NCBI GenBank assembly: GCA_956465555.1 | Contig: OY101120.1 | Coordinates: 2,474,001-2,538,000 of the forward strand | Direction of reading: 5' to 3' | From: Nitzschia sp. pyKryTriq1 | Lineage: Eukaryota > Bacillariophyta > Bacillariophyceae > Bacillariales > Bacillariaceae | Length of the DNA stretch: 64,000 nucleotides | Shown: one piece after another, positions 4,263-49,136 of the stretch | Layout: every line of letters begins with the position of its first letter | Position numbering within the stretch: the first letter of the stretch is position 1 | The notes under the pieces: model-generated | Seen by the model: the letters and a program-made list of their open reading frames with translations, nothing else | The model's database searches: none | Told to the model about the DNA's origin: nothing | Made by a program: the position numbers and the translations under genes

Positions 4263-6353
4263 TCAATCTGGTCTTTTCGCTGCAGATTTTTCCTCTTTCT
4301 GAAATCGCGCCCATTCTTTACGGAATTCGTCCAATTCCTTCAGAGGGTGCCTGTGGGACCTGTTCCCGATGACGGGGATGCGTCGGATTGGGAGAGGGTG
4401 CGAATGGACAAAATTGCCCATGCTAAAGTCTTCAATGCCCCAATCGACCGCTCGCCGATCCAATTCAGGGGATGTCACAAATCGGGCCAGATCGACGCTC
4501 ATCCAGTACAAATGCCCGCCCATGTAAATGGGGCCGACTCTGCGATGAGACCATTCGTATTTTTGTCGGTATTGGCCTCCATACACACGGACATTGTCGG
4601 GAAACACTGGAGACTTCGCCAGAGTCGTATCCAAAAAGAAATTGGGGAAAATCAAAGTGTCGGTATCCGTCTTTCCAACGTAATCAAAGTAGAAATGGTC
4701 ATCAATCACAGTGGTTGCATATTTGAACCAAGTGGGAGACTTGCCATCTTCCATATTCTCTCGAATATTGAGATGGACAATATCGTTCTCGTCTTGCAGT
4801 AAGGGTCGCGAAGAGCTGCCGGCTTGATTGTCCGCAATCATTGGAAAGGTAGCATTGGGCCCGATCAATTCGGTCGGGCCATTGGGATTACTACCCATGA
4901 CAAAGGTATACGCCATCTGGCAATCAACGCCGTTGTTGGGTACCAGTCCGCTAAGGAGTTCGTGCAAGGAGCAAATTCGATTCGGTGTCGGCGAGTATTT
5001 GTAGTAGGATAGGTATGTACTGCGAAGAGTTGCTCTTCGTTCTGTTTCGACGGGACTATCCATCGTAAAGATGCCCATCAAAATGCGCGGACCCGGCAAC
5101 TGTTTGGCAGAAGTTTTCACAGAAAAATATTTGGTAGCACTACTAGCTTCCACCAAGGCAACTTCTTTCGGATCATTGAAGCTTCCTTCTGCCGTTAGCA
5201 TCGTGTCTTTGTATTTGTCCCACTGGTGGAGATAATCACTCCAACCTCCTCGATTCGCCAAGGCTGGACGGGCTCCCACCAACGCTTGCGGTGTGACAGG
5301 GACGGATATTAGTTGTTGCAGAAAATTTGCCAGAGCTACATCCACAGATTCTTTGGGCTGGAGTGCACCGTAAGTCTCCACAGGATCGGCCTGTACCACT
5401 GAATCCAACAGATCCCCGGAAATTAAACTGATCCGTTGCAACATGGTCGGAGCCTGAAGGGAGGGACACCATTCTGCCGTGACAGACTTTTTCTGGGAAC
5501 ACTTGGATTTGTGGACAAGATTTCCTGCGTAAATACGCTTCTTGGGTGACGAAGTAAAGATGGAGTTTTGCCAAAATTCCACTGGATGAATCCGCACTCG
5601 GGCGTCCATGTGCGCAACGTAATCAAATACGGATTGTTGCTCCTTCTTTTTGTCCTTCTTCTTCATCCATTGATTTGCAACATATCGATGCCAACTCCAA
5701 ACTTTGTAGGAATTATGTCGATCACCAGTATTGAGAAACAGAAAGTCACCCTTATCATGTTCACTCAATGTCATTTGCTCCAAGGCCTCCTGGCTCGGCG
5801 TAATGGTAACGTCGTTATTGCTATTGGCAGTCGAGGAGGGCACTAGGTTGGCCCGCCATTCACTGGGTGGAGTCTCGCTCCGTGTCTCATTGGCTCCCAG
5901 CACAAACGTATATACCAGTTGGCATTCATATGGCTTCCATTCGTCAACTGGTTTGATAGAGAATTTCTGAATCGAACACACTCGATTGGGTGTAGTAGTA
6001 TTGTGGACATGATCAAAAATGAGATGCGTTGTTCGATGAGTTTCCCGCAGTCTCCCATCACTGTTCATCAACGTTTCATCCGTATCAATATTGCTGAATA
6101 TCCCGAGCAAAATCCGAGGTGGACGACTTGACGACGACGAAGAAGAAGTAGATCCAGCTACCGTGGTTGTAGTTGTTGTTGCTGCTGCTGCTATTGTCAT
6201 CGTCATGGATCGTGGGTGATGATGACTTGTTATTCCGAATGACCATGATGTTATTGGTGAAGTGAAATCTAAGGTTGTCGCGAAGAAGAGCTGGATGACT
6301 GAAACAAGAAGGGACAGAACAAAGACATAGATGTAGATGGGTTGTCGTGTCAT
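4263..6353 (-). CDS. Two-domain GT31-like glycosyltransferase (type II membrane)
   Basis: A 696-residue single-exon protein. It starts with a short basic N-terminus and a hydrophobic signal anchor (about residues 6-28), then a Ser/Thr-rich stem. Two GT31-like domains follow. The N-terminal one (about 78-330) has a PRILLGIFS start, an RLRETHRTTHLIFD helix and a substituted acidic site (HMDARVRI). The C-terminal one (about 425-680) has PRILMGIFTMDS, ERRATLRSTYL, the acidic metal motif in KTDTDTLIFP (about 557-566), YMGGHLYWMS and EDFSMGNFVHS. By analogy with beta-1,3-galactosyltransferase-type enzymes it should transfer a sugar from a nucleotide sugar in the Golgi. Donor and acceptor are unknown. 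The N-domain looks catalytically dead. It is a tandem paralog of the frameshifted gene downstream. It is divergent from the GT47 gene, with about 470 bp between the starts. Confidence 0.85.
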   Translation of the reverse strand: MTRQPIYIYVFVLSLLVSVIQLFFATTLDFTSPITSWSFGITSHHHPRSMTMTIAAAATTTTTTVAGSTSSSSSSSRPPRILLGIFSNIDTDETLMNSDGRLRETHRTTHLIFDHVHNTTTPNRVCSIQKFSIKPVDEWKPYECQLVYTFVLGANETRSETPPSEWRANLVPSSTANSNNDVTITPSQEALEQMTLSEHDKGDFLFLNTGDRHNSYKVWSWHRYVANQWMKKKDKKKEQQSVFDYVAHMDARVRIHPVEFWQNSIFTSSPKKRIYAGNLVHKSKCSQKKSVTAEWCPSLQAPTMLQRISLISGDLLDSVVQADPVETYGALQPKESVDVALANFLQQLISVPVTPQALVGARPALANRGGWSDYLHQWDKYKDTMLTAEGSFNDPKEVALVEASSATKYFSVKTSAKQLPGPRILMGIFTMDSPVETERRATLRSTYLSYYKYSPTPNRICSLHELLSGLVPNNGVDCQMAYTFVMGSNPNGPTELIGPNATFPMIADNQAGSSSRPLLQDENDIVHLNIRENMEDGKSPTWFKYATTVIDDHFYFDYVGKTDTDTLIFPNFFLDTTLAKSPVFPDNVRVYGGQYRQKYEWSHRRVGPIYMGGHLYWMSVDLARFVTSPELDRRAVDWGIEDFSMGNFVHSHPLPIRRIPVIGNRSHRHPLKELDEFRKEWARFQKEEKSAAKRPD

Positions 6354-6822: not shown

Positions 6823-8331
6823 ATGAAGGTAAGCAGAACCAGCAACAGCAACAGGAGGCTCCGAGCTCTTCTTTTTACGGTCACGGCAGTCTCGGCCATC
6901 ACATCTCTGGTCACATGCAGCATCCAGGATGACGTCAACTTGGTTCAAGGCGCCTACTTCACAGCCTTAACACCGGTCTTGACACCACCGACGACGTCTC
7001 GACAAAGCATGACGTCAAAACCACCCGAAGACTACGGCAATTTACTATTGACCGTTCCCTTCTATGTCTACGAAGAGCTGGCATGGGAAGATGCCACATT
7101 TGGAGCATTGACCGTGGAGAATTTGGCACGGGCTCCACGAGGTCGGAGCAAACACGCCGACGACTTTTACTTTATGAAAGCCAGTCTCAATCATCCCATG
7201 CGAACCAGAGATCCCAGTCAGGCAAAAATCTTTGTCATTCCATTGCTGCTGAACTTTTATGCCGACAGACACTACTATTCAGGCCGGGAGCACAAATTGT
7301 GTTCTGCTTCTACTAGTACTAGCCTGACGAGGACGAGCAGGAGGACTTATTGCGACCGAGATCTCTTGCGGCACGCGGCGACAGTATTGCAACACTCGGA
7401 ATGGTTTCAGGCGCATCCAGAACGACATATTGTGGTCCAGTCTCACTATCTTGCCGACAAGAAATTCAAAATTCCCACTGAGCTGAAAGATATGCTCTAT
7501 CAAGTGAATGTGATTTCCTTTGAAAACCAAGTACCCAATCGGCCCGACCGACTTCGTTTCCCCAAATATTACGTCGGACATTCATGCCTTACTACTCGTA
7601 ATAATATCGATAAAAAGAAGAACGACCCAAGGCAAGAAGATTCTACTGCTGCTGCTGCTGCTGCTGTGAAAAAGACCCAAGACGTGGTAATGATCGCTAG
7701 CGTCAATCACGAAAAATTGCATTACTTTCAAGATCGCCTCAATGTCTGCGAGTGGATTCGAAACAACAACAACTACAACAACACTGATACTGATACTGAT
7801 CATAATAACGCTACTACTACTATTATAATGAGCCAATGTGGCCAAGGCGAGCAATGTCCTGCCTTGGCACAAGCCAAGTTTGGCTTTCATACCCGAGGAG
7901 ATACACTGGGGAGCAATCGACTGATGGATACTATCTTGAGTGGTACAGTACCTATTTTTACAAGGCGTGAGCAATATGATATTTTACCTGCTTGGATCGA
8001 TTGGAAGAATCAACTTTCGGTCTTGCTGCCAATGAACAACAGCGACGACGAACCTGCTGCCATCAAGAGTAATCAAACGGCGGCATCATCATCGTTCTTA
8101 CAGGCTCTCAAAGCAATCCTCCAAGATGAGCAAGGATATCAGGAGAGGCAAGCGGCGATTCTCCAGCATCGAGCACTGTTTGATTGGACAACATTGTATC
8201 CATTTGATACCTACATGTACATGCTACAGGCCGAACTTTACCCCGAGACGCGTCATCCCATCGACAAAATTTCGTCTGTGTGGCCCGCATTGCTCCTCCC
8301 GCCGCCGCCGCCACCACCACGACCGAAATAA
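6823..8331 (+). CDS. Exostosin-like glycosyltransferase (GT47)
   Basis: A 502-residue single-exon protein. A basic N-terminus and a hydrophobic segment (about 12-33) act as signal anchor. The exostosin fold is recognised from FYVYEELAWED near residue 75, an (A)KIFVIPLLLNFY segment, a PERHIVVQSHY segment, and the C-terminal signature FGFHTRGDTLGSNRLMDTI followed by SGTVPIF (about 352-380). This last block corresponds to the GT47 motif in which a P/R-GD-S-R-L-D-I-GC/T-P pattern contacts the nucleotide sugar. Ala, Asn and Thr/Asp repeats (about 275-345) look like unstructured insertions. The C-terminus is a Pro run followed by Arg-Pro-Lys. A Golgi role in glycan or cell-surface polysaccharide synthesis is inferred. 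The specific sugar cannot be read from sequence. Confidence 0.85.
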   Translation: MKVSRTSNSNRRLRALLFTVTAVSAITSLVTCSIQDDVNLVQGAYFTALTPVLTPPTTSRQSMTSKPPEDYGNLLLTVPFYVYEELAWEDATFGALTVENLARAPRGRSKHADDFYFMKASLNHPMRTRDPSQAKIFVIPLLLNFYADRHYYSGREHKLCSASTSTSLTRTSRRTYCDRDLLRHAATVLQHSEWFQAHPERHIVVQSHYLADKKFKIPTELKDMLYQVNVISFENQVPNRPDRLRFPKYYVGHSCLTTRNNIDKKKNDPRQEDSTAAAAAAVKKTQDVVMIASVNHEKLHYFQDRLNVCEWIRNNNNYNNTDTDTDHNNATTTIIMSQCGQGEQCPALAQAKFGFHTRGDTLGSNRLMDTILSGTVPIFTRREQYDILPAWIDWKNQLSVLLPMNNSDDEPAAIKSNQTAASSSFLQALKAILQDEQGYQERQAAILQHRALFDWTTLYPFDTYMYMLQAELYPETRHPIDKISSVWPALLLPPPPPPPRPK

Positions 8332-12541: not shown

Positions 12542-15500
12542 TCAAAGCTTTGGCATTTTCGCGGCACTTTCGTCCCCGGCGGCCCCGCCGAGAATGTCAT
12601 CCATATCGTAAAGATCATCGTCCCCCGTTCCCATGTCCTTCGAAGCAGCAAGTAACATGGCTTTGCGTTTGATACCGCGTTCCCGTTCTTTTTGTTCGTC
12701 TTCTTCCGTCTTGCTAGATCGCATCAGGCGCTTCTTCAAGGTGATCCAGTCTTGGACGTACTCGTCCTGGAAAGCTTTCGAGGAAGAATTCTCAAAAAAG
12801 GTTTGCATATATTCGTGTTGGAGAGCTTGTTTAGCAGAAATGCGCTTCTTGGGATCCAAGTGAAGCATTCGACTAATCAAGTCAAGAGCACCAGCGTATG
12901 TCTGAGGATTGTCTTCTTTCATCATGTGCGTCAGAGCCTTAGCCACACCAGGACCGTACTTTTTCTGGGGTTTCTCATAGTACGGAAACTTGACGCCGTC
13001 CTTGAAGTTTTCCGCAGAAGGGATTCCCACCAACTTGTACACCGAAAGTAGCATCGACTGGCGCTCCTTGCCACTGTAAAGAGGCTTGCCGAGCAGCAAG
13101 TGACAAAGGAGACATCCAAGAGTCCAAATGTCAGTCTCCTTTGTAAACTTGGGAGAGCCCAGAAGCATTTCTGGAGCGGCATAGGGATTGTTCAAAATGT
13201 CGTCGTCATCGTCTCGTTTGCTCTTTCGGTTCTCCTTCTTGCGTTCTTTTGCCGCCTTGAGAATGTCGGCTCGTTTTTCTTCCTTGGATAGGACGGTAGC
13301 TCGGTAGAAGCTACCAAATTTAACCACGCCACTGTGATCGACCATGATCTGGTCTGCTAGGAAGTTCCGAAGAACCACATCATTGGAGTGGCAGTGAAGA
13401 AGTGCTGACAACAAGTCGTGCGTCCAAGATGCCAAGATCGTAGGGGTTATCAGCTGATCTTCGGGCTCGCCGTCTCGCTTCTTTCGTACGGTAAAACGCT
13501 GCAAGACAAAAGGAGTTGGATGAAAGACAAGATGCGGCCCCGTCACCATGTCTTTTCGTTTACGTTCTTTTTCTGCGGCAACCTCATTCTCCAAGCTGGT
13601 GCGAGTTAGCGAGAAAATATCTTCGTCGATTCGTTTCAGATCCAAACCCTTGGAGCCCAGTGGTGACAAGTCCATTCGCTCATTGGTTTCTTTCGCTTCA
13701 AAAGGAAGACCCACTGCAATTGGTAGCAAGAAATTCGGATGACCCTGAGGAGATTTAATCAATCCATGTATCCGGTACAACACTTGCATTTCCTGCAGAG
13801 CACCAGCAGAAAATCCACTCTGCCACGTGCGTTTGCCCTTTTTGCCTTTGCCTTTCTCTTCATTTTTATCTTTTCCTTGTTCCCTCTTAGCCACCTTTTC
13901 AGTCGGCCACCGCTGAAGTGAGACTGGAACGAATCGATCGGTGGCCCCCTCACTGGGCCGCTTCTTTCCCATCATGGATGTGAGCATCGAAAAGGCTGCC
14001 GATTCTCCTTGGAATGCGTGGGTAAGATTCGCCAAAGCTTCTAGTGTGCCCGATTCGCTATTATTCACTAGGAACATGTCGCAAATGGTCCCAGTAGGGT
14101 TCGGTCCGTATCGAGGCGGAATCCACCATCGAAGGCCACCATGTCGCAGTTCCGACTCCTTAATTTTGCCTGGAACGCAACTTTTGCCACCAGTCTTGCG
14201 TCCCCAGAACGCTTGAGTCGACAATTGAGATTGAATAGTCTCGGCCCAACCATCCACGGTCTCAATCTTATTCATGGAAAGTAGACCCGGTTCTCCCTTG
14301 GCTTGAATAGCGTTCTGGGAAGTGATTGGCAGCTTGCCAGTTTCTGGTGGACCAAGTTGGCACCTGCCTTCGACAGCTTGTTCTAAAAGATAGGCAGCAA
14401 TGGAAGTTGCTCTCCAAGAGCCCTCCAAGATGATTTGCTCCATCCCGGTATGCTCTTCTTGCTCCAAAAATATTGAGGAGTTACTTTCGGCTCCAATCCC
14501 ATCCAACGCCGGAAGGATCACCTCCTTGATAATGGTGGCATCGACCCCTTTGAAGATCTTTCTTATTTTGTTTCGTTGTCCCAACAGCCGATAACGTTGT
14601 TCTTTCTCCGACATTTGATCCATCCGGTACCCTGGTGAAAACGAGGACATGCTCAGCGCACAAATTTGCTTGATATGTGGAAGCCGTGTCGCAAGGCCTT
14701 TCTTTCCTTCTTGGAACAGTGGATGCGAGGATTGGACTTTACCAAAACTTGTGTTTCGCATCGAAGAGATGATGATTTCTGCCGCTTGAAGGACCTTGAA
14801 GGGAATCAAGGAGAGCGCTGGAAAGATACTGTCAAGCTTTGCATCCAGGAAACCAGCCGCAGCAGCGTAGACGTACTCGGCGCCATAGGTAAGCCACAAG
14901 TCGGGTCCCGCAGCGAGAACGGGACCACTGACCGAAAAGGTCAAGGCTGCCTTGGCCAATTTCGGGTCCATCTTGCCTGCTTCCACCGCTGCAGAGACGA
15001 TCCAGTCGAATCCTCTCCAGAAGACATCGTAATTGAGAGTCTCCAGGATTTCGGATTCGGCAGCAACGACCTTCTCTTCCCAAACGACAACTTCTTCCTT
15101 GGACGAATCGAAAGTGACACCCGGGTAGAAGCCCTTGTAAGCAGCCTCCAAGACAGCATCGAGCTTCTTCCACTTGGCTAGCTTTTGTGCTTTGTTGGCA
15201 ATAAAGATACAAGCCAGCTCGATTTCTCGCATTTTCATATTCGATTCGGCCGCGTCGTCTTGGGATAGCATTGTGGCGAAGCGGTAGAACACAACCGTCG
15301 CATGGGCTGCGACTTCTGCTGGCAACTCCAATGCCGAAATGATCTCTGCCATTTCCAAGCAGGCATTCATAGTGGATTTCGAGTCAAACGTCAAGGCTCT
15401 GGAGGAGGTCAATGCGGAGCTACTGGCTCGATTGTTGGCGGCGTCAGGTGCCTCTTCCGTGATGGCCACATTCTGCGATGTACTTCGTCGCGCCAACGTC

Positions 15501-18145
15501 CAATCCCGACCAAAGATCCAGCTTTGCTGTCGAACGCAATGATCTCGGAACAGTTCAATTTGAAGTCGAATCAACTCTTCCGCCAACGCTGCACGCTCTC
15601 CTTCGGAGACACTGTCAGGAACTTCAGAGGTCTCAATGGGAGGCAACAAAGTAGTTCCAATCGCAGGCCGCGGTGCCCCCTTGCCATCAATGCGCAAGTG
15701 ATCTCCCGTCATTGAATCGACAGTGACCGAAGCACCTGTCACCGATCTAACGAATTCAAAGAATTGACCGCTATTCCGCATCATCAAGGGTTGGTAAAGT
15801 CGATCGGGTCCCAAGTATAAGTACTTGACGCCACGAGCCACCTCGGCTGCGCGTTGTTTGACTAGATTCCAGAGTTTCGGAATCACCTTGGGATCACAAC
15901 CAAAATATATTTTACGAGGAGCGTTGGGAGTGGCTTCGTTCACGATACGATTCGAGGCATCAATGCGTCCCTTGTCCGCATCTGATTGAACCCAAATGGT
16001 ACATCTCTGGGTCGATTCAAACGAAGAGAAAAAGGGTGACCAGCGTGCCAAATCTTCCTTGGCCGTATGTCGTCGTAAGGGTTGGGTACTTCCTCTTCCC
16101 GTCTGTGAAGCTGTGTGTGAGGTGGTAGTAACAGTGGTCTTGTCGTACTGCAACAAGCGATGAAAGTCGGATGAACTCAACTCTCCCGCCAGAAATCCTA
16201 AATCCAAATACACACCCGACGGTGTTTTGGGTGAGTTGTTTTCTTCACAACATACCACGAGTTGTTTCCACAGGTTTTCTTTCGCACTATCAATATCCGA
16301 TTGGAGAGATCCCTCTAGAATCAGTTTGGCAAATTGCTTGCTTTTGGATTCCGAGGCCACAAAAGTGATATTTACACTCCTACACTTTTCTCGTAAGAAT
16401 GGCATCCGACGTCTGACGGATTCCACAATGGATCGTGGCAAGACCACTTCTGTCGGAGGAAGTCCCGTAGTATTGACAATTCCCGTGCCGGTACCCGCAA
16501 TGTCTGAGGTAGCGCTCATCGGTCCTCCCAAGCCATTGAGGGCGCCTGACGAGCTGGATCCCACGATTCCCAGTTGTTTTTCCAGGTAGGCAACATTCTT
16601 TTCCAGAATACTGTGTGCCTTGAGAATATCAATGCCTACAATGGTGAGTTTCCACACGGTTCCATCGGTGGATTGGTCCAAGGCCTTGTACTTTTCCTGT
16701 TCCTCTGGGTCATTCGGATCGGGTGGTAGGGGTGGTTTTGCAAACTGCTGGGGTGAAATGGTGACTTGACAAGATCGTTGGCATCGATCCAGCAAGTGTT
16801 TGCTAATCAGGGCTTCCTTAATCGGTGTCTGCACATAGATGTAATTCTTGGCCTTTTGTCCTGACAAGAGTAGATTCATACCCGGCATGGAAGATGCCAT
16901 GGACGAGGAAACTCCCTCCAATAGGGATTCTGTAGCACCCGATCCATTGGCGTCGGATCGCATTGCCTTTTTCCGAATAATGTACCCCTGTGCCTCTTCA
17001 TCGAGGATCATCCAGTCTTCTGTTTTGAGATCTTCCCATACTTCTTCCATGTCATGTCGATACATGAGTAAATGTTTTCCCGTCGTATCATTAAAGGCTA
17101 CGACATCCGCGATAAAGTATTCTTGTGTTTCCTTGGAAAAGACACGGACGCATCGATTGACAATTTCGTTACGGGCTCGTAGAATCAGTGGTTTCGTCCA
17201 ATGCGACGACAACTGGCGTTCCAAGGCTTCTTCTTCCATACTCCGGGGCACCTCCAAGGTCCCTCGACAGGTAGCGGCTCCACAATGGCACTTGGTGGGC
17301 GCCCGGCCCCTCTTGCGTTCCCACTGATAATCAAAGGACAACTCCGTTCCGGAGGGAATGTCCTTGGTGGCAATGACTGCCGCCCGCAGGATGCCCCGGA
17401 CCTTCCACCGCTCGACGACGCAATTGGGTTCGCACGAATGATTGATGTACCGGGCAATCCCTCCCCGCCTCCGGGCATCCAAATAAATGGAATTGTCCAG
17501 TGCCATAATGTACAATCGCCGTTCATTGGCGTACCGATGAAAGAGAGTGGGTAGAAAGTGCTTGGGAATCGCGCGTCCTACATATTCACACACAAAGTCC
17601 CCCCGGGCGACATCCTCCAAGACCCTCAAGCCTCGTCCCTTCTTTCCAGCATCAAAGACTTCTATATCCTTCCATTCCCGTCGTTGAATACGTCTATTCC
17701 CACACTGTTCTCCCGCCTCACACGATGACGAACGACATTCCTCTTGGCAGGCAAACAAAACGCACGACAAATCATTGCACGTCATGACCGTCGGATCCTC
17801 CGGGCGTCGGCACCCACAAGGATCGTCACTACGATCCGCCCTCGGTTTCGGTGCCAGTTCATCCCCATCTTCCGTCATCATCGTGCCATTATTGTAGTTG
17901 TTGTTGTTGTTGTTGCTGCTGCCGCTGCTGTTGTGCACATTGGGATCCGCCCATTCGACTTGGTCAATCATTTGAAAGCCCCGATCGCCTTCGTCGTCTG
18001 CGAGTGCGGCAGGAATCATCATCTGGTTGTTGTTGTTGTTGTGGTTGGTAGTATTAGAGGACGAAGAAGCAGGCACTGGACTCAAACTACTTCGGCGGCG
18101 GTTCTCGTCATCAGTGTGCGTTTTAGGAGGCCCCCAGCGACTCAT
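12542..18145 (-). CDS. SET methyltransferase-cyclin-CDK-like pseudokinase fusion
   Basis: A single 1,867-residue frame without introns. Residues about 108-150 form a Cys-rich AWS module. SET follows at about 158-278, with GKKGRGLRV, YINHSCEPN (235-241) and TELSFDYQW, then a post-SET with CxC...C (286-293). This is the layout of SET2/NSD/ASH1-type H3K36 methyltransferases. KH-like stretches may lie between about 400 and 830 (weak). A cyclin fold spans about 890-1128: LELPAEVAAHATVVFYRF, ELACIFIANKAQK and ILETLNYDV match transcriptional cyclins T/K/L. The kinase-like C-terminus (about 1440-1785) has a helix-C-like LQEMQVL, HPNFLLPI, YAAPEMLLGS, DIWTLGCLLCHLLLGKPLY and a CDK-like LVGIPSAENF. HRD is replaced by LRN, its Asn by Gln and DFG by SFY, so it is probably inactive. 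Nuclear action on chromatin at transcribed genes is inferred. Start at 18145 gives the complete AWS-SET. Confidence 0.88.
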   Translation of the reverse strand: MSRWGPPKTHTDDENRRRSSLSPVPASSSSNTTNHNNNNNQMMIPAALADDEGDRGFQMIDQVEWADPNVHNSSGSSNNNNNNYNNGTMMTEDGDELAPKPRADRSDDPCGCRRPEDPTVMTCNDLSCVLFACQEECRSSSCEAGEQCGNRRIQRREWKDIEVFDAGKKGRGLRVLEDVARGDFVCEYVGRAIPKHFLPTLFHRYANERRLYIMALDNSIYLDARRRGGIARYINHSCEPNCVVERWKVRGILRAAVIATKDIPSGTELSFDYQWERKRGRAPTKCHCGAATCRGTLEVPRSMEEEALERQLSSHWTKPLILRARNEIVNRCVRVFSKETQEYFIADVVAFNDTTGKHLLMYRHDMEEVWEDLKTEDWMILDEEAQGYIIRKKAMRSDANGSGATESLLEGVSSSMASSMPGMNLLLSGQKAKNYIYVQTPIKEALISKHLLDRCQRSCQVTISPQQFAKPPLPPDPNDPEEQEKYKALDQSTDGTVWKLTIVGIDILKAHSILEKNVAYLEKQLGIVGSSSSGALNGLGGPMSATSDIAGTGTGIVNTTGLPPTEVVLPRSIVESVRRRMPFLREKCRSVNITFVASESKSKQFAKLILEGSLQSDIDSAKENLWKQLVVCCEENNSPKTPSGVYLDLGFLAGELSSSDFHRLLQYDKTTVTTTSHTASQTGRGSTQPLRRHTAKEDLARWSPFFSSFESTQRCTIWVQSDADKGRIDASNRIVNEATPNAPRKIYFGCDPKVIPKLWNLVKQRAAEVARGVKYLYLGPDRLYQPLMMRNSGQFFEFVRSVTGASVTVDSMTGDHLRIDGKGAPRPAIGTTLLPPIETSEVPDSVSEGERAALAEELIRLQIELFRDHCVRQQSWIFGRDWTLARRSTSQNVAITEEAPDAANNRASSSALTSSRALTFDSKSTMNACLEMAEIISALELPAEVAAHATVVFYRFATMLSQDDAAESNMKMREIELACIFIANKAQKLAKWKKLDAVLEAAYKGFYPGVTFDSSKEEVVVWEEKVVAAESEILETLNYDVFWRGFDWIVSAAVEAGKMDPKLAKAALTFSVSGPVLAAGPDLWLTYGAEYVYAAAAGFLDAKLDSIFPALSLIPFKVLQAAEIIISSMRNTSFGKVQSSHPLFQEGKKGLATRLPHIKQICALSMSSFSPGYRMDQMSEKEQRYRLLGQRNKIRKIFKGVDATIIKEVILPALDGIGAESNSSIFLEQEEHTGMEQIILEGSWRATSIAAYLLEQAVEGRCQLGPPETGKLPITSQNAIQAKGEPGLLSMNKIETVDGWAETIQSQLSTQAFWGRKTGGKSCVPGKIKESELRHGGLRWWIPPRYGPNPTGTICDMFLVNNSESGTLEALANLTHAFQGESAAFSMLTSMMGKKRPSEGATDRFVPVSLQRWPTEKVAKREQGKDKNEEKGKGKKGKRTWQSGFSAGALQEMQVLYRIHGLIKSPQGHPNFLLPIAVGLPFEAKETNERMDLSPLGSKGLDLKRIDEDIFSLTRTSLENEVAAEKERKRKDMVTGPHLVFHPTPFVLQRFTVRKKRDGEPEDQLITPTILASWTHDLLSALLHCHSNDVVLRNFLADQIMVDHSGVVKFGSFYRATVLSKEEKRADILKAAKERKKENRKSKRDDDDDILNNPYAAPEMLLGSPKFTKETDIWTLGCLLCHLLLGKPLYSGKERQSMLLSVYKLVGIPSAENFKDGVKFPYYEKPQKKYGPGVAKALTHMMKEDNPQTYAGALDLISRMLHLDPKKRISAKQALQHEYMQTFFENSSSKAFQDEYVQDWITLKKRLMRSSKTEEDEQKERERGIKRKAMLLAASKDMGTGDDDLYDMDDILGGAAGDESAAKMPKL

Positions 18146-22837: not shown

Positions 22838-24558
22838 TCACTCTACAGCTTTCTTTTCAAAGATCATCAAACATTCAATGTGCTTCGTTTGAGGGAACAA
22901 ATCGTAGGGTTGGATAGACACAATTTCGTATCCACCAACTTCGACAATCCCCTTGGCATCCCGGGCTTGCGTGTTAGGCCCACAACTCATATAGACAATC
23001 CGCTGAGGACTGTATTCATATAGTTGTTCCAAAAAGACTCCTGAACACCCCTTCCTAGGAGGATCCAAGACCACGACCGTCTTGTCCCGCGGAAAGTCTT
23101 GGACCTGCTGGTCTTCAAATCCTTCTAGCGTAATCTTGGGTGGGCTCTTGAAAATAGCTTCCGCGCTGGCTGCCATGAATTGACAGTTTCGAATTTGGTT
23201 CGCTTTGGCATTTGCGGTGGCTTCGGCAATGGCCTTATCGTTGACTTCAATCCCCACACACAAGTCGAATTTCGAAGCGGCCGTGAGAGCAAATAGCCCC
23301 GACCCACAGTAACAATCAATGAAATACTTAGGATCGTTGCCTGCTGCAGTAGGTTGCAAAGCAGCATTCAAAACTCCTTCGACCATCAATGGCAAGACGT
23401 AGTTGTTATTTTGAAAGAAATTTCCCGCTTGGTATCGAAACGTAACCCCCTTGACCGTGGTCGTCATGTACTCGTTGTTGTCCATCACGACGACGGGATT
23501 TCCATCGGCATCTGGATCGGCTTCTCGAAACAACAATGTTGCCCCAGCGTCTCCCTTACTCCGTCGATTCCGCTTGCGTTTCTTGCGCCCATTCAAGACG
23601 CCCTCTTTGGCTTTGAGTTGCAATTCGGCGCGCACTTGTTGCAATTTGGCGTTGATTGCCGGAGTGGCAATGGGGCATTCTTCCACATCAATCACTTGCC
23701 GACTACATATTTGTTGAAATCCAATCGGTCCCATTTCAAATTCTTCCGTCGTCTTATTTCGATACGGCGCCTCGTAGTGTGGCGTCAATTTGCTGCGATA
23801 TCCATAAATTTCGTCCGTACCGAGCGCGGGGTGCAGCAAGGCACTACAATGGTCGCTGTTGCCGAGATTAGTATTATCATATCCAGCAATCGATTGTTTC
23901 AACAATCCCTTTCGAACATAATCCGTCTTCCATTTTCGTTGCGTTTCAATCGATAAATGTTGAAATTGACATCCTCCACATTTCCCCGCCAAGGAACATT
24001 TGGGTTGGATCCGAATAGGAGACGCCTGGACTACACTCACCAAATCTCCTTCACTGTAGGTATCAAAGTTTTTAAAGATCCTGGTACGGACCCGTTCCCC
24101 GGGGATCACCATCGGTACTCGCACCTCCCATTCCGTCCACGAAGTCAGGGTGGATGGAAGCAGCTCATCACCGGGCAAGATGACATCGTCGGGTTGCTCC
24201 TTGGCAATTTTTCCCACACCCACTCCCAGATCATTCAACGCGGACAAATCGTCTCCCTGAATATCGACTTCTACTTCAAAATGATACTGTGTTATAATGA
24301 AAAAGTCAAGTAGCAAAAGAGTGTGATCATTGATGGTCAGTGCTGTGAAAACGTTTTGTAATACTGTACCGTACGAGCCTGCTGCGCGATGGACAGTACA
24401 TGCACTGTACTGGCGCTGTTCTTGTAGTCTACTAGAGAGAATGAGGATCGACGTACCGGAAAGGGTTTGTCGACGAATTTCGGAGGGATCCTCGACCGGC
24501 CACCCGTTTCTTCTCCTTCGATGGCATCGTCGTCGTCGTCGTCGTTGGCGTCTGACAT
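22838..24558 (-). CDS. TrmA/RumA-type RNA (uracil-C5) methyltransferase, paralog 1
   Basis: Exon 1 (24558-24457, 34 codons, acidic start MSDANDDDDDD) joins exon 2 (24286-22838) over a 170-nt GTACGT...ACACAG intron in phase 0, giving 516 residues. A TRAM-like segment (VPGERVRTRIFKNF) is followed by an Fe-S-type cysteine cluster, CX5CX2C in CSLAGKCGGCQFQH. The SAM-binding motif is FIDCYCGSGLFALTAA. Then come VVVLDPPRKGCS and YMSCGPNTQARD, whose Cys is the family's nucleophile, and DLFPQTKHIE with the conserved C-terminal Glu. The enzyme should make m5U in tRNA or rRNA. A Lys/Arg-rich insert (RKKRKRNRRSKG) may help RNA binding. No targeting peptide is seen, so a nucleo-cytosolic location is inferred. 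It is paralogous to the gene at 51.9-53.8 kb, with the intron at the same place. Confidence 0.88.
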
Positions 24559-28746: not shown

Positions 28747-29375
28747 GGTGGGCGACTGAAGTGGTATGAGGAAAGTATGTAGATTACCTTCACGATTTTT
28801 CACGATTTTTTTGAAAGTAACGGACGCAGAGCCCCGAGATGTGACAGAAACGAAAGTCGCAAATAGTGCGATGGAACCAAATCTTTTCTGGCGTTTTGGA
28901 TGCCCCAAGCGTTGGGAACTGCCTAAGTAAATGTTGGTATTTAAGAGAAAGATGCATCCGTTGACCGTTGGGAGTGCTGGCCGGCTTTCCATCTTTGAAT
29001 TAGATATGCCCAATCGCCAAATCTTCCCCACTTACAGTATTTCGATACATCCGGATTTCGGCCACAGGAACGCATCGAAAGATCGCTCCGATCCAGATCC
29101 GACGCATCCACCAGCTTTTTGAAATCTCATCGTAGCAGCGGAATAAGGATGCGATGATGAAGACCCTGGGATGCAGCAGCAATGCATGCCACTAGGTAGC
29201 CATACCACGAATAATCATCTTGCTCACAGTTCATCAACTAGTAGAGATAAGATCGACCTCCCTTTTAAACATGAACGTATTTACTACCAACACGAACGAA
29301 AGAAACAAGTAGGTCGAGAAATCGAGCAATCATCTTCCATCTTCGTCGCGTGAGCCCGGCCATTGTTTGACCACC
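28747..29375. other. Divergent intergenic region
   Basis: It lies between the starts of the Ser-rich gene (minus) and the GT31 gene (plus). An upstream extension of the minus frame reaches 29031 but shows no features. No regulatory element was recognised. Confidence 0.45.
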
Positions 29376-30752
29376 ATGATGCCTACTATTAGTGGGCCGC
29401 GCCAACGATTCTTTTCTCCGAAGAATGCTACTACTACTTCATGTACTCGGCGTGTCGCCTCTCTCTACTGGTATCTCGCCTTTCCCTGTCTTGTGTGGGT
29501 AGGGCTGTCATCCTTGCGAGCTCTCGACCAAGCGATTTCGTTGGATCGGGCTGCGCAACAGACTTCGCCCAACAATAATAATCATATTACATTGATACAA
29601 CAACAAAGACAACAAGTTTCCAAAGAAAAAGTGTTTCCCGGGTTTCATAATCGCGATCCATCATTACGCTCTGTGGGAGTTCCACCGAATAGTATTATTG
29701 CCCAAGAGAACAACAAGAACAGAAGTGGTACTCGTACCGGTAGTGAAAGTGTCGGTGATCATGGTGTGTCACCCAATAATTGGTATGCCAAACTTGAACA
29801 ACAGCAACCAAAACACACCACCACGACGTCGGGAGTCATGCATCCCGAGTTTGTGCAAAAGCTGAATCAACGTCGATTGGAATTGGAGAGGAAGGCCGCG
29901 ACGAATACGGATGGTTCCGCCTCACAAAAAGTATCTCCAGAAACCTCAAATAAGAAGTGGACACCAGCCCCCACTCCTCTGAATCAAACAATTTCATTTG
30001 GAGACTGTTTCTTGCCTCCCCCACGGATACCTCCACCAGTCAAGAAAAACAGCAGCCGCAGCAGCAGCAGCAGCACTACCGTGGTTATATTGGTACTAAG
30101 TGCCCACCACAATTTTGAGCGCCGACAAGCCATTCGTGAAACGTGGGCGCAACAACAACAACAACAACAGCAGCAACAACGACAAGAACGAAAAGAACCA
30201 TCCAATGGGAATGTTCTCATCTACTTTGTAGTGGGGCACTCCAATTGCGATGCAAGTGATGCGTCAGCGGATGGTAAAAACAACAGCAACAACATGGACT
30301 GCCTAGAACGCGATCACAGTCTCCTTTTACAAGAGCAACTCCTCTACCAGGACATTCTGGAAATTCCAATGATCGAATCTTATCGCCGATTGCCCGAAAA
30401 AGTAGTCCAAGCCTATCACTGGACTCTACAACACATTCCTACGGCACAATGGTTCGTCAAAGCTGACGACGACACCTACGTCCGACCCAACAGTCTCTAC
30501 CGCTATCTTCTCAAATATAATTCCCACATTCCTATATGGATTGGCAAAATGATTCCGCACTCACGAGTCGCAAGGACAGGCAAGTGGGCCGAGACGAAAG
30601 AATTTTGGGAGGGAGACTATTATCCCTATTGGGCGATTGGATCGGCGGGGCATGTAGTCAGTCGGGCCGTGGCGCAATATGTCGTGGAAAATTCAGCATC
30701 GCTCCATCGGTATCAAGGAGAAGATGTCAGTCTGGGTATTTGGCTACATCAT

Positions 30753-30790
<38 letters not shown>

Positions 30791-31235
30791 ACAGCAACAA
30801 ATGGGGATGGGGGTGACCTACATTCAAGCTGACCATATGATTACCAATGATGGAACGGGTGCTTGCGGGATCGCCAACTACTTCTTGATTGGTCATGATT
30901 TGACCCTGGAAGAAATCTACGATTGTTACCTTCGATTCAACAACCATACTTCCTTCTTGCAGGAAAATACTTGGGTGGATGAGCCGGCAGCATTCGCAGA
31001 CTTAGTGAGGGTGGAAGAAACTGCGGAATCGAACGTGGCGCGCAATGCCTTTATTCGAAATCACTTGAGTAAAAGGGATGGTGGTGATGGTGGCAGCGGG
31101 GCTGGCTCAAATATCTTTCAAAATGGGGGAGCCAGATCTTCCTACAACAACTATGGGGCTGCTGTGCCCAGAGGGAAGAAGATTGGATACGAATTTCCCG
31201 GATCTTTCAGGGATCATCTGGCCAAAGCGTCGTAG
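29376..31235 (+). CDS. GT31 beta-1,3-galactosyltransferase-like protein
   Basis: About 619 residues from the ATG at 29376, which has a good CCACCATGA context. A signal anchor (about residues 24-48) and a long Gln/Asn-rich stem precede the GT31 domain (about 230-540). The domain shows FERRQAIRETWAQ, VLIYFVVGHS, ESYRRLPEKVVQAYHW, the metal-binding KADDDTYVRPNSL, YYPYWAIGSAGHVVS and YQGEDVSLGIWLHHW. These are the canonical motifs of beta-1,3-galactosyl/GlcNAc-transferases of the Golgi. Two polyglutamine tracts sit inside the domain, one just after the RETW motif and one just after EDVSLGIWL. The C-terminal tail is Gly/Asn-rich. The sugar specificity is unknown. It differs from the two-domain glycosyltransferases at 1-6.3 kb, being much closer to the canonical family. 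Confidence 0.9.
30756..30802 (+). repeat. CAG trinucleotide repeat coding polyQ in GT31 domain
   Basis: An almost pure CAG run (11 or so codons, then one AAA and more Gln codons) inside the catalytic domain of the galactosyltransferase. A second, CAA-based tract lies at about 30150-30182. Confidence 0.85.
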
Positions 31236-35783: not shown

Positions 35784-36236
35784 TAGACGAATGTAAATTA
35801 TATGTCGCGTAGAAAACCTTTTTGAATTTTGCAATAATTGGATCTCTCTACTCTACTAGCTACTAGCTCTACTAGCTACTAGTGGCTATTAGTAGCTACG
35901 AGTACAATAGAAAGTACCAGGTACCGGTAGAGATTGCCTCCTTATTGTGTGAGGTGTGTTGTCAGGGAAGACGGGGGGCAGAAACGAAGGGGTGTCTTTG
36001 AACCCCCCCCCCCCCCCCAACAACAAAAAGCCGCGTCGGCCGGCATTCGCTCAACGGACCGAAAAAACAAACGACCGAAAAAACAAACGCACGACCGCAA
36101 TGATAAAAATGATCGCTGGACATAAGACTATGTACTGCGTACAAGCACCGTACGTACCGTTAGGATCATTTCAACTTTCACAGGTATTACATTATTAAAA
36201 TATTAGTCTACCGGCTGTAAAGTGAAAAGAAGAACA
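35784..36236. other. Intergenic with poly-C tract
   Basis: A 16-base C run at 36003-36018, CTACTAGCTACTAG words near 35853-35885 and GTACCGGTAG at 35921. It is upstream of the cysteine protease. Confidence 0.6.
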
Positions 36237-37733
36237 ATGTATCTCAAACAACTCTTACTGCAGCTCACTCTATTGCTGGGTTGGCTCTTTGTCAACGCCG
36301 CTGCTCAAGATGAGTCGTCGTCCTGTTCCGCCGATGAGATTGCAGCTTGTGCTCTGGAAGATCGCTTGTGTGTAGTGCAAGAAGTTGTGTCATCGGACGG
36401 TTCTTCTACAAATACTGCATCGTGTGGTCCTTGCGTAGAGGGATTTTTCGAGTGGGAACGAGTCGAAACAGGTTGTTTCAACATTTCGGACTTGACCTTG
36501 CAGGATTTCATCGAGGCGTTTTCTCCTGTCTACACGGATGAAGGCGACGATGAGGCGGGCGGGGACGGTAGCAGCAATAGCACCACGTTGCTGGAACGCC
36601 TCCAATTTTTAAAGCAATCGGCGGAATTCATTGGAGACTACTACCGTTCCCGAAACGCATCATCACTGCCAGTCGTGACAGTACAAGGAGAAGGAGGAGA
36701 CGGGGGAAACAGCACCACCAACAGCAGCTTTGAGTTTGGCTTGACTCCGTTTTCGGCCGATGGACCTACCGAGTACAAGCAGCGCTCGGGCTTTCAGGCG
36801 AATATTCCATTGGATGAAAACGCCGAAAGGATCCCGCTTTCTCCTTCAACAACGACGATGTCCGCGCAAGACTTGCCGGACAAGGTCGATTGGAGAGCCC
36901 GTGGAGCGGTCACAGAAGTCAAGGATCAAGGTCGTTGTGGATGTTGCTGGGCTATTAGTATGGTGGGAGCCATTGAAGGAGCGGCAGCCGCCAACAATGG
37001 CTACCTCCAGAACCTTAGCTGGCAGCAGCTCATTAGCTGCGATGCCAGCAACTTGGGATGCAATGGTGGAGCCATCGTTATCGCCTTGGGTTATTCGTGG
37101 CTTAATCAATTTGGGGGTTTGACTCGCAACAATGAATATCCGTACACGGACTATAATGGGGACACTACGTTTAACTGTCAGGTCGACTCCAAACCACTGG
37201 CCGTCACTGTCTCGGAACCCAGGATTGTTTTTTCTTTCGAAATTCCAGTTGATTTCGATACTCGAGTCCAGCTCATGAAAGAAGCCCTCCAAGTGGCCCC
37301 TGTGAGCATGGTAATCAAGAGTGCCTGCAATACTCTCTCCAACTATCGCAAAGGGATTTTAACTGACGATGGGGACTGTGCCTGTTCGGACACTAGTTGC
37401 ATCGACCATGCCATCTTGATGGTGGGGTACGACGACACCACCAATCCTCCCTCTTGGATTCTCAAAAACTCGTGGGGCACCTCTTGGGGAGAAGACGGCT
37501 ATTTCTACATCAGCCAACAAGCCAAGGGAGATTGGGGACTCTTTGGCGTAGTCAGTCAAGGCGTCCAAGCACAACTGGCTCAAAATGTGACGGCCCAAGT
37601 CGCAGATGATAGTGTGGACGAGCCTCTCAAGCCCTATGCTTGGGTCTTGATCGCTTTGGCAGCGGTGTGTGTGTGCTCGTGTGTGGCAGGCATTGTTCGC
37701 AAACAATTGTCAACCAAATCGGCTGAGGAGTAA
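36237..37733 (+). CDS. Papain-like cysteine protease (C1A) with C-terminal membrane anchor
   Basis: 498 residues from the ATG at 36237. The longer frame starts at a GTG and only adds five codons. A signal peptide is clear (about 1-23, leucine-rich, ending AAAQ). A pro-region of about 190 residues has an acidic Gly/Ser/Asn-rich insert. The mature domain starts near LPDKVDWRARGAV. The catalytic Cys is in DQGRCGCCWAIS (about 236), the His in CIDHAILMVGYD (about 390) and the Asn in LKNSWGTSWGEDGYF (about 409). CNGG, typical for the family, is present. After the domain comes a single membrane helix (about 462-485, AWVLIALAAVCVCSCVAGIV) and a short basic tail. Endolysosomal or cell-surface proteolysis is inferred. 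The membrane anchor is unusual for papain-family enzymes. Confidence 0.9.
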   Translation: MYLKQLLLQLTLLLGWLFVNAAAQDESSSCSADEIAACALEDRLCVVQEVVSSDGSSTNTASCGPCVEGFFEWERVETGCFNISDLTLQDFIEAFSPVYTDEGDDEAGGDGSSNSTTLLERLQFLKQSAEFIGDYYRSRNASSLPVVTVQGEGGDGGNSTTNSSFEFGLTPFSADGPTEYKQRSGFQANIPLDENAERIPLSPSTTTMSAQDLPDKVDWRARGAVTEVKDQGRCGCCWAISMVGAIEGAAAANNGYLQNLSWQQLISCDASNLGCNGGAIVIALGYSWLNQFGGLTRNNEYPYTDYNGDTTFNCQVDSKPLAVTVSEPRIVFSFEIPVDFDTRVQLMKEALQVAPVSMVIKSACNTLSNYRKGILTDDGDCACSDTSCIDHAILMVGYDDTTNPPSWILKNSWGTSWGEDGYFYISQQAKGDWGLFGVVSQGVQAQLAQNVTAQVADDSVDEPLKPYAWVLIALAAVCVCSCVAGIVRKQLSTKSAEE

Positions 37734-39521: not shown

Positions 39522-41765
39522 TCATCGGCTCCTATTAGCATTAGCACTCGCCGGTAATGAAAGACTGCTCCAGTAGTTTTCCACGGTCGGTTTCTTCCCT
39601 CCCAGCAAATCGTGTAGCATGATTTGAGGATCTCGAGCTCCTCCATGCATCAGCATGCCCTTCCACAACTTTTGCCCGGCACGACGGTCGAGCGACTGCG
39701 GATGAAAGAGTTCGTTCCAAATGGCACTGGCAAAGACTTGTGAGTACAAGTAGCCATAATACCCGGCGCCATAGGTAACAAAGTGTCCCACGTTGGTATA
39801 AAAATGAGACCCTTCCATGAACGGCGCTTGATAGTCCTTGTGGAGACGAGACCAAAGCTCCTGGGGTCGACCTGGTACTGAAGGTCCTCCAAAAATTTCT
39901 TGATCAAATCTCGACAATATGATTTGACTTTGCATTTCGAGGCATTTAAACTGATTCTGACTGGCAACAAGAGCCCGAATGGTCTCGTCCGGCAAGGACT
40001 GGCCGTTTTGTTGACAGAGTATAGGCAAGAATGTGGGATCCCAGACATAATGTTCCATCCAATGAGAAGGCGTTTCGACAAAATCCATGGCCGCTCGAGT
40101 TCCTGCCATGTGCTGAAAGTTGGTCCGACTCAACAGTGAATGCAGAGCATGTCCCATTTCATGAAAGAGCGTTTCTACCTCGGAATGGGACGACAAGGTG
40201 GCACTTCCCGAGTTCATGTTGCAGACCAACGCGACAATAGGCAGTTGATAGTCCGAATCTGGTCCACTGCTTCGACAGCCACAACGAACCGTGAAATGTG
40301 CAGCATGCGTGTACTTTCCGGGGCGAGGGTGTAAGTCCAGGTACATGGTGCCGAGAGGTTGTTCTGTTTGTTGGTCCCAAAAGGAAAATTTCCGAATTCG
40401 TTCTGCAGGATTCAACAATAAGGTATTGCCATCATCATCGTTAACATCCCAGGCTTCTCCCGGTGCCATGACTTGCTCTTTCATGTCAATACCGAATAAT
40501 CGCTCCACTAACAATTGCATAGCATTCAAACAGTTTTCCAATCCGAGATAAGGAGCGAGCTCATTTGGATCGACTCCCCATTGGGCTTTCAATAGTTTGG
40601 TATAAAATTTGACATCCCATGGTTCGATGATGGAGGATCCTTCCACTTGTGACTTGGCCCGACCCAACAATTCCAGGTCTGCCTTGTACTGGGGTTGAAT
40701 TTGTCGTTCGACATCTTGTAGAAACTGGAGTACACCCTCTGGCGATTGTGCCATTTTGTCTTGCAAACTCCTGGCCGCATAACTCTGAAATCCCAATGCA
40801 GTGGCGAGTTCATGACGTTGATGAATCAACGCGTCCAAGACATCTTTATTTTCCGGTGTATTGGTCATGCTTTCCCAGTAGACTTGTTTTCTCAAGTCCC
40901 CGTTGGTGGAAAAACTCGAAATCGAATGAGCAATCGGCGAGTCGGTGACAATTTGCAGTCTCTTATCGTCATTATCGCCATCATCGTAAACGGCCCCATT
41001 GGCTTCCAAGACATGTCGTGGCAAGACCGCTTCCACTGACGCGGCTGCATCACCATCTATCCAAAAGCGTTTGTGAGAATGGGTAATATTGTTCATCCAC
41101 AAGGTTTCGACATTGACGACATGCTCGTGCAAGGTTTGTACATTTGTACGCTGTTCTTCGGGCAAATGAATCCCATCCAATTCAAATTCCCGCTGCAATA
41201 AAAAACAAAATCGGGACTCTTCTTCGGTCAATTCCGTCCCATACTCTCTCTCGACCATGACCAGCGCTTGATATAAGCGTCGATCGGCATTCAACGTGGC
41301 AATGTACTGTTGGAGTTGTTGAAAGGTTTCATTGGCCACCTGCCGCCACTCGGCCGACGCATGAGCGGAGCGACACAATTCGGCAGCATCAATCACATTG
41401 CAAATCGTCTTTGAAATTTCGTCGAGTCGATACAAAGTTTCGACGGCGTGTGCGGCAGAAGTGAATGACTGCTGATCGGGAAGAATACCGGCCCGCAAAT
41501 CGTCGCTCTTGTGAATGGCGTCCTTGGCGAGACGGCGAAAATCAGCGGGGGTCACCAGACCTTCAATCGAAAATAAGCCAGGAGCAGCAGCAGCAGCAGG
41601 GCGTCGATAATTCTTTTCGCCATTCGAAGTCGTTGTAGCAGTGGCAAGAGAGCGTATTGGTGGTTGCTGCCACTGCAAAACATAAGGTTGCTGCCGTGGT
41701 GGTTGAGTGGTGAGGCGACGAGACACAAGGAGGAGTCGTCGACAAGTAGTAGTGGACCACAGCAT
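39522..41765 (-). CDS. MIPEP: Mitochondrial intermediate peptidase (M3 metallopeptidase)
   Basis: 747 residues, single exon. The N-terminus (about 1-50) is rich in Arg, Leu, Ser and Thr with almost no acidic residues, as expected of a mitochondrial presequence. PGLFSIEGL near residue 65 resembles the start of the mature MIP family. The M3 zinc site is HEMGHALH (about 535-542), with the third ligand Glu downstream in FVETPSHWMEHY. The C-terminal GGYYGYLYSQ-like stretch (YGAGYYGYLYSQVFA) is the substrate-binding loop of the family. In other eukaryotes this enzyme trims an octapeptide from precursors after the main processing peptidase has cut. An organellar oligopeptidase with broader specificity is the alternative. 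An 81-bp piece of this gene (41121-41201) recurs inverted at 42678-42758. Confidence 0.9.
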   Translation of the reverse strand: MLWSTTTCRRLLLVSRRLTTQPPRQQPYVLQWQQPPIRSLATATTTSNGEKNYRRPAAAAAPGLFSIEGLVTPADFRRLAKDAIHKSDDLRAGILPDQQSFTSAAHAVETLYRLDEISKTICNVIDAAELCRSAHASAEWRQVANETFQQLQQYIATLNADRRLYQALVMVEREYGTELTEEESRFCFLLQREFELDGIHLPEEQRTNVQTLHEHVVNVETLWMNNITHSHKRFWIDGDAAASVEAVLPRHVLEANGAVYDDGDNDDKRLQIVTDSPIAHSISSFSTNGDLRKQVYWESMTNTPENKDVLDALIHQRHELATALGFQSYAARSLQDKMAQSPEGVLQFLQDVERQIQPQYKADLELLGRAKSQVEGSSIIEPWDVKFYTKLLKAQWGVDPNELAPYLGLENCLNAMQLLVERLFGIDMKEQVMAPGEAWDVNDDDGNTLLLNPAERIRKFSFWDQQTEQPLGTMYLDLHPRPGKYTHAAHFTVRCGCRSSGPDSDYQLPIVALVCNMNSGSATLSSHSEVETLFHEMGHALHSLLSRTNFQHMAGTRAAMDFVETPSHWMEHYVWDPTFLPILCQQNGQSLPDETIRALVASQNQFKCLEMQSQIILSRFDQEIFGGPSVPGRPQELWSRLHKDYQAPFMEGSHFYTNVGHFVTYGAGYYGYLYSQVFASAIWNELFHPQSLDRRAGQKLWKGMLMHGGARDPQIMLHDLLGGKKPTVENYWSSLSLPASANANRSR

Positions 41766-47970: not shown

Positions 47971-48686
47971 CAGTACGCCACAGCATCATAGTGGATCCCA
48001 TCATAGATAACATAGATTCGTCGCTTGTACTTGTCCTCAGTTCCATAGTCGTCGTGTCGATTTCGAATGATATCCAGCGCGACAATCTCAGTATTAAATA
48101 TTTGACTCAAAATACTCAAATCGATTTGCCCGCCCCAAGAATTGGATTCTTGAATCCAGCTAGCATATTCCGAGTTAGGTCGTCCAAGAAAGGCTTCGGA
48201 GTAGGTGGATGGATCCCTGAGAACGGCTTGAGCGACAGCACTTCGCAGCGCTTGGGACATGCTAGGAGGTTGTTGAAAAGCATAGCCTATTGAGTGGAAC
48301 AAGCAAGAATTGTCGGCATCGACAACGCGTCGAACTACATATCCTTCTGGATCCACTATCGGCGGTTCCTCTTCGAAAGCTCCAATTTCAAATGGGACGG
48401 TCGGCTCGGCGGCGGCAGCAGCAGCAGCAGCACTCGTCACCGCGGCAACCGGGAATCGGAGACTCGGCTTGTCGCCCTCCGAGACATGGATCGAATCCAC
48501 TTCAAAGGGGAGAGGATCAGTGGCTACAAATGTCGAATGCCTGGGTGGATAACCGCACTTCCATTCCTGGCGAGAAAGAGAAATGCCAGTAGTCTCTTGA
48601 ATGATTTCTCCGACTTCCTTGGCGGATGCTGCGTTGTTTATGGTTGCAGATCCACCGGAATGGCGGATCCGTAGTTTGTTGGTCAT
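47736..48686 (-). CDS. OTU1: OTU1/YOD1-type ubiquitin thioesterase
   Basis: 316 residues from the ATG at 48686. The longer frame begins with a GTG and resembles a splice acceptor just before the ATG. A UBX-like N-terminal part (MTNKLRIRHSGG...) is expected to bind the p97/CDC48 ATPase. The OTU catalytic domain (about 115-240) has VVDADNSCLFHSIGYA, with the catalytic Asp and Cys, and YDGIHYDAV with the His. A C2H2-type zinc finger ends the protein (LRCLVCQQGLKG...HAQESGH). This three-part layout is that of yeast OTU1 and human YOD1, which trim ubiquitin chains in ER-associated degradation. An Ala run (about 92-100) is a local insertion. Its 3' third is duplicated at 42768-43008. Confidence 0.92.
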   Translation of the reverse strand: MTNKLRIRHSGGSATINNAASAKEVGEIIQETTGISLSRQEWKCGYPPRHSTFVATDPLPFEVDSIHVSEGDKPSLRFPVAAVTSAAAAAAAAEPTVPFEIGAFEEEPPIVDPEGYVVRRVVDADNSCLFHSIGYAFQQPPSMSQALRSAVAQAVLRDPSTYSEAFLGRPNSEYASWIQESNSWGGQIDLSILSQIFNTEIVALDIIRNRHDDYGTEDKYKRRIYVIYDGIHYDAVAYCFDPQLPSDMDTRQFSPNDLIILERAKHLCAQEHQRKAYTDTSNFTLRCLVCQQGLKGQTEAAQHAQESGHANFSEFR

Positions 48687-49136
48687 GCTGGACTGTAATA
48701 ATGCAAGCACATCATTGACGATTCCTCTCGAGAGCTAATACAAAACAAGGCCAGAAACAAAATGCTCTCGTTTTTTTCGCGGGTTCCTTTTGCTACCGTT
48801 GATATTATGCAGCGCTCGCCAGGCCGCTCGCCGCTCGCGTGCAAAGCCGTTTATGGCCAATGCCATCAGCCGCGCGAAGCGAGAGCGTGTAGTGTATTAT
48901 TAAAAAAATACGCGATACTTTTCGGACTGCGTTCTCGCAAAACAATCCCACTCATCTTCCGACAATATTACTGCCGGTATCGTACCAGGATACGAATAGT
49001 CTACTTGCACTACTACTACCGGTACTCTACCCGGTAGTCCAGAGTTGATTGGAATTACTACGAGCACACTACTTGACTTATCGCTCGCTTGGTCAGCCGC
49101 TTCTTGTTTGTGATCACGTGCTCGATCAGTTTGAAA
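48687..49136. other. Divergent intergenic region between OTU1 and p24 genes
   Basis: It holds CGCTCGC-type words near 48810-48890 and CTACTACTACCGGTACTC near 49010-49025. No gene seen; probably the shared upstream region of two secretory/ER-linked genes. Confidence 0.45.

Follow-up and report, generated by a model that had tools for sequence, protein, structure and literature searches.

A candidate H3K36 methyltransferase of diatoms with a predicted transcriptional-type cyclin and CDK-like pseudokinase in the same polypeptide

Background

A single unbroken frame in the genome of Nitzschia sp. pyKryTriq1 encodes, in one polypeptide, an apparent H3K36-class SET enzyme, a cyclin T-like domain and a CDK-like pseudokinase, and this fusion is not a chance joining of genes, because 131 of 158 listed relatives carry its modules in an identical order. 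In well-studied eukaryotes the CDK, the cyclin and SET2 are distinct polypeptides brought together by phosphorylation of the Pol II C-terminal domain (CTD), and how H3K36 methylation is coupled to Pol II during elongation is among the central questions of chromatin research. A fusion kept across diatoms, its dead kinase strictly conserved, would physically join methyltransferase, cyclin and CDK.

The reading proposed here, to which we give an even chance of being correct, is that this is a diatom H3K36-class methyltransferase that has incorporated a transcriptional-type cyclin together with a CDK, the pair forming a single docking module without catalysis. It is proposed because the modules lie in one frame, their order is kept, the SET motifs are intact, and the cyclin retains its Lys/Glu pair while the kinase has lost its catalytic residues; and because the predicted CDK fold is complete, cyclin and kinase fall within a single high-pTM model, and no SRI domain is matched.

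Results

Gene and domain layout

The source genome comprises 40.65 Mb in 20 contigs; the window (the whole 64,000-nucleotide stretch of DNA analysed) corresponds to C6:2474001-2538000. The gene occupies positions 12542-18145 of the window on the minus strand, as do all of the features located below. As the initial annotation had described, the frame is uninterrupted; it runs from ATG to stop through 1867 residues, with no intron in it, and the family keeps both its start and its C-terminal tail. The proposed architecture of SET, cyclin and CDK-like pseudokinase likewise holds, inasmuch as profile, fold and conservation agree on it. Pfam scans at E ≤ 0.1 of 26 members (the window protein plus 25 of the 158 relatives, chosen for spread) detected both SET and Pkinase in every one, Cyclin_N in 21 and AWS in 7. 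For the window protein by itself the profile evidence is uneven: SET and Pkinase score above their cut-offs and Cyclin_N and AWS below, the cyclin being accepted through a family profile.

At the extreme C-terminus, the family alignment reveals a conserved acidic motif, DDLYDMDDIL (residues 1843-1852; 12590-12619), with Asp1843 kept in 95, Leu1845 in 98 and Tyr1846 in 98 of 99 rows; it looks like a short docking motif centered on Leu-Tyr.

The surrounding window contains two tRNA (uracil-5-) methyltransferase-like genes within its 64 kb (22838-24316, minus strand; 52225-53751, plus strand), three galactosyltransferase-family genes and one exostosin-family gene (1043-2431 and 4263-6353, minus; 29367-31235 and 6823-8331, plus), a papain-family protease (36222-37733, plus), an M3 peptidase (39522-41765, minus) and an OTU1-like deubiquitinase (47736-48710, minus).

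The SET half

The SET domain (residues 170-274; 17324-17638) is identified by Pfam (E = 1.3e-19 in the window protein), by fold and by conservation, and its catalytic motifs are intact: the Asn and His of the NHS motif are present in 139/139 rows with a residue there, and the Tyr and Asp of the FDY motif in 140/140. (A first alignment contained one Gln in place of the NHS Asn among 94 sequences.) Preceding it is a cysteine-rich AWS region (residues 105-156; 17678-17833), which Pfam matches in the window protein at residues 117-156 below cut-off (E = 6.8e-4) and which an own-genome search places above cut-off at 26 bits; each of seven cysteine positions is kept in at least 88 of the rows having a residue. 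Post-SET cysteines, recognized from conservation, follow at residues 286-298 (17252-17290), with Cys286 and Cys293 present in 140/140 rows.

Profile, fold and conservation thus support assignment of the protein to the H3K36-class SET enzymes with AWS-SET-postSET organization. The narrower 'SET2-like' label of the initial annotation is likely to be right. SETD2 gives the highest score for the SET core (146.3 bits, versus 142.9 for ASH1L and 123.4 for NSD1), and the top Foldseek match of the SET half is Set2 in a Pol II complex; against this, ASH1L scores first once AWS is included, and in fold comparison SETD2, ASH1L and NSD tie. Under the reading proposed here, the protein would most likely be the SETD2-type enzyme of its own genome. 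The SET family there seems large, with 80 matches at E ≤ 0.001, counted exon by exon.

Set2 proteins reach elongating Pol II through their SRI domain (PMC10421102, in the text available). In all 26 members scanned (Pfam, E ≤ 0.1) there is no match to SRI or to WW; the corresponding whole-genome SRI search detected no control and so carries no weight, and a separate SRI protein is possible. SRI is not universal in Set2/SETD2 proteins, since C. elegans MET-1 is also described as being without it (PMC10421102).

The Tudor-like and middle modules

Residues 327-385 (16991-17167) are modelled as a five-stranded, Tudor-like barrel, and a profile of six members over this region matches 7de9 (E = 1.1e-4), a structure reported to show the Tudor domain of RDM15 in complex with H3K4me1 (PMC8184781, in the text available); PTM_DIR17_Tudor is weakly matched in 2 of the 26 members. 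Beyond it, a putative run of alpha/beta modules in KH-like order spans residues 434-820 (15686-16846), and a small module of the same order lies between cyclin and kinase (residues 1180-1258; 14372-14608; assigned from predicted secondary structure only). Both are predicted with high pLDDT in good part. A KH identity for residues 434-820 was considered and is not claimed, as it would rest on the order of secondary-structure elements and on weak KH_1 matches somewhere along the chain in 2 of 26 members. For residues 430-822, the PDB yielded one marginal match (SRP14, E = 0.014) and Pfam no convincing family. (Since SET and kinase chains took up all of the VIA and Foldseek lists, the lack of cyclin or KH chains in them is meaningless.)

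Structure prediction had been put forward in the initial annotation for the three parts. Cyclin and kinase are predicted together in one compact model of pTM 0.85 (a whole-model figure); the model of the N-terminal half has a low pTM of 0.46.

The cyclin module

The cyclin module (residues 868-1145; 14711-15544) is matched in the window protein by Pfam Cyclin_N at residues 932-1041 (15023-15352; E = 3.9e-4), at 20.6 bits against a cut-off of 23. When this region alone was compared with the PDB by single-sequence phmmer, no match was obtained at E ≤ 1. With a profile of ten members, cyclin T1 accounts for 12 and cyclin L2 for one of the 14 PDB sequences retrieved at E ≤ 5, the best match having E = 1.1e-4. 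Lys985 and Glu1030, taken here as the CDK-contacting pair of the cyclin box, are retained in 154/155 and 155/155 rows with a residue. A putative second cyclin box is represented by helices in the model; Cyclin_C has no match in any of the 26 members. Profile, fold and conservation hence support a transcriptional-type, cyclin T-like module.

A standalone cyclin T-like protein is encoded elsewhere in the genome (locus L064, 3469-4584, minus strand), with Cyclin_N and CycT2-like_C above cut-off. An hhalign comparison pairs this protein with the fusion cyclin across 201 columns (E = 3.1e-5, probability 73); the single-sequence BLASTP match between the two is weak (19% identity, E = 7e-4). A second locus (L066) holds a standalone PITALRE kinase with its HRD motif kept (one pattern match, control 0). 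This kinase is proline-rich and has an apparent intron, and DWG replaces DFG in it. Because the genome has both of these proteins, the fusion seems to be an addition to a normal cyclin T/CDK pair. Two C-type CDKs have been described in P. tricornutum (PMC2872877, in the text available). Cyclins, too, seem to form a large family in the Nitzschia genome (40 Cyclin_N matches at E ≤ 0.01, counted exon by exon).

The pseudokinase module

The kinase module (residues 1283-1809; 12719-14299) is a bilobal CDK-like fold with insertions, identified by Pfam and by predicted structure. The Pkinase match in the window protein (residues 1563-1780, E = 7e-22) covers profile positions 92-263 only; the initial annotation had seen here a C-lobe and nothing more, which must be corrected, since the predicted fold has both lobes, its alignment to a CDK12 chain taking in 304 of 310 residues and extending over the N-lobe.

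Three canonical catalytic positions are altered throughout the family. Where the beta3 Lys would be, there is Ser (Ser1409; 13919-13921) in all 153 rows with a residue; the HRD position reads Leu-Arg-Asn (1592-1594; 13364-13372), the Asp being present in 0/153 rows; and the DFG position reads Ser-Phe-Tyr (1612-1614; 13304-13312), with Asp in 0/152 rows having a residue. The alphaC Glu is kept (153/154), and SAGALQE stands, as aligned by eye, in the PITALRE place. From its sequence, the module is a CDK-like pseudokinase from which the canonical catalytic residues have been lost family-wide. The CDK fold is complete, and comparisons with CDK9, CDK12 and other CDKs do not agree on a nearest subtype: VIA scores are close together (CDK12 25.1, CDK5 25.0, CDK9 24.5, CDK2 24.4, CDK1 24.3), by sequence CDK1 (in phmmer) and FUS3 score above CDK12/13, and Foldseek places CDK1, CDK2 and CDK3 ahead of CDK12, which ranks 15.

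Conservation of the fusion among diatoms

Three protein searches, which required shared five-residue words and a length of 0.55-1.75 times that of the query (so that relatives elsewhere are still possible), gave at least 98, at least 109 and 52 matches, amounting to at least 158 distinct proteins. Two of them sought relatives outside diatoms. The search weighted toward the cyclin by an alignment returned at least 109 matches at E ≤ 10 among 7998 candidates, the weakest listed at 2.4e-39, all of which carry family modules; that with an MMETSP transcript member returned 52 at E ≤ 10 among 4795 candidates, the weakest at 4.3e-124. Among the matches listed in these searches none has an oomycete name, and neither P. 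tricornutum nor T. pseudonana is named among them, most matches carrying no name.

Module HMMs were built from the family for AWS-SET, cyclin, kinase N-lobe and kinase C-lobe, and a match had to cover more than 50% of each model, with the order kept. By this measure the same fusion is indeed present in other diatoms: the full order is intact in 131 of the 158 listed relatives (105 of 128 before the third search). All modules occur in Nitzschia sp. Nitz4, N. inconspicua, Bacillariaceae sp., Cylindrotheca fusiformis and Seminavis robusta, and also in Epithemia clementina, Thalassionema nitzschioides, Cyclotella atomus, C. meneghiniana and Discostella pseudostelligera; incomplete members come from Mayamaea, Thalassiosira profunda, Stephanocyclus and Attheya. 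In 23 of the other 27, at least half of AWS-SET is missing; many of these start inside or after it, and P0124-P0128 lack the C-lobe as well. The C-lobe is missing from P0092, P0122 and P0158, and P0098 has no N-lobe match. These absences likely reflect truncated models or contigs.

As to whether transcripts end between the modules, a possibility raised in the initial annotation, four MMETSP transcript-derived proteins (P0039, P0090, P0117 and P0118) each span the whole fusion, whereas P0079, whose transcript is labelled complete, starts only past the SET part and may be an alternative product. That two or three neighboring genes were joined artificially, through mis-assembly or a missing stop, is hardly credible: the 27 relatives in which some module match is missing could be cited for it, truncation being the likely cause, and it would have to explain an order shared by 131 of 158 relatives on many contigs and by the four transcript proteins.

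Discussion

A proposed mechanism and its alternatives

Occurrence of the fusion in many diatoms suggests a built-in tether from histone marking to transcription, and the link between H3K36 methylation and elongation control envisaged in the initial annotation is plausible as a hypothesis. Under the docking-module proposal, the SET part would methylate H3K36 and the Tudor-like domain might read, or anchor on, the nucleosome. The cyclin would bind the pseudokinase in cis, in the usual cyclin-CDK geometry, and the resulting dead cyclin-CDK body would bind Pol II or elongation factors but not phosphorylate them. In this way it would stand in for SRI and bring the methyltransferase to transcribed chromatin, while phosphorylation could be left to the separate cyclin T-like protein and PITALRE kinase. 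SRI is unmatched in the 26/26 members scanned, and the most economical reading is that the cyclin-CDK body took over docking. A more specific version, which we advance tentatively and hold at somewhat less than even, the more so as the comparisons favor no single CDK subtype, is that diatoms exchanged the SRI-phospho-CTD link of Set2 for a dead cyclin T-CDK assembled in cis. This 'pseudo-P-TEFb' would belong permanently to the methyltransferase and would read the transcription machinery rather than phosphorylate it.

The near-invariant Lys/Glu pair of the cyclin (154/155 and 155/155 rows) and the presence in the genome of a PITALRE kinase with HRD kept would also suit a cyclin that binds an active cellular CDK in trans and carries it to the methyltransferase, leaving the pseudokinase some other scaffold role; we regard this as unlikely, inasmuch as the pseudokinase would be expected, from the shared model (pTM 0.85), to occupy the CDK-binding face. 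A strictly conserved dead active site fits a scaffold and an allosteric role alike, and the cyclin-pseudokinase might therefore be a switch or autoinhibitor of SET having no direct part in Pol II docking. To this we assign little probability: the models, made separately for the two halves and with a low pTM for the N-terminal one, show no contact with SET, and the nearest solved relative of the cyclin is the transcriptional cyclin T1. Finally, a CDK fold with a dead active site recalls a dominant-negative CDK, and the module might act as a decoy, vying with CTD kinases for the CTD or their partners and thereby restraining elongation; this is quite improbable, as the module is fused to an enzyme of a class linked with active transcription, which would rather favor recruitment. 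The conserved fusion would make a non-catalytic role for a cyclin-CDK directly testable in culturable diatoms, in which H3K36me3 has been mapped (PMC10421102, in the text available).

Comparison with known systems

The fusion has in common with Set2/SETD2 the AWS-SET-postSET region, the catalytic motifs and a best or near-best sequence match, but has no SRI or WW match and adds the Tudor-like, cyclin and pseudokinase modules. With P-TEFb (CDK9-cyclin T) and CDK12-cyclin K it shares a cyclin T-like domain and a CDK fold; it differs in being one chain, in having a dead kinase and, by eye, in having SAGALQE for PITALRE. Diatom SETD2 homologs, including PtSETD2 (Phatr3_EG02211), have been reported to contain lineage-specific motifs IV-VII, left unnamed, in a paper whose main text uses neither 'cyclin' nor 'kinase' (PMC10421102); perhaps these homologs and the fusion are the same protein group.

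The initial annotation knew of no described protein with this architecture, and likewise no description of a SET-cyclin-kinase diatom protein was found in the literature searched, where subscription papers are mostly missing. A two-part form, a SET plus dead CDK fusion, is already in print for oomycetes. Oomycetes, ciliates and Theileria have separate, perhaps inactive CDKs with C-terminal cyclin domains, stated to be absent from two diatoms (PMC3019232, in the text available). Like the diatom fusion, these combine a cyclin and a probably inactive CDK in one chain; unlike it, they carry the cyclin on the opposite side of the kinase, are described with one named Asp to Asn change, and have no SET mentioned in that text. 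The same source, from 2010, reports in Phytophthora infestans PITG_14137, with orthologs in P. sojae and P. ramorum, a fusion of SET with an inactive CDK-like kinase (PMC3019232). Compared by description only, it resembles the diatom protein in joining these two modules in one chain; it differs in that no cyclin is mentioned in the text available, where the protein is said to occur in no further species. Should the Phytophthora protein prove orthologous, the design would be an old stramenopile invention.
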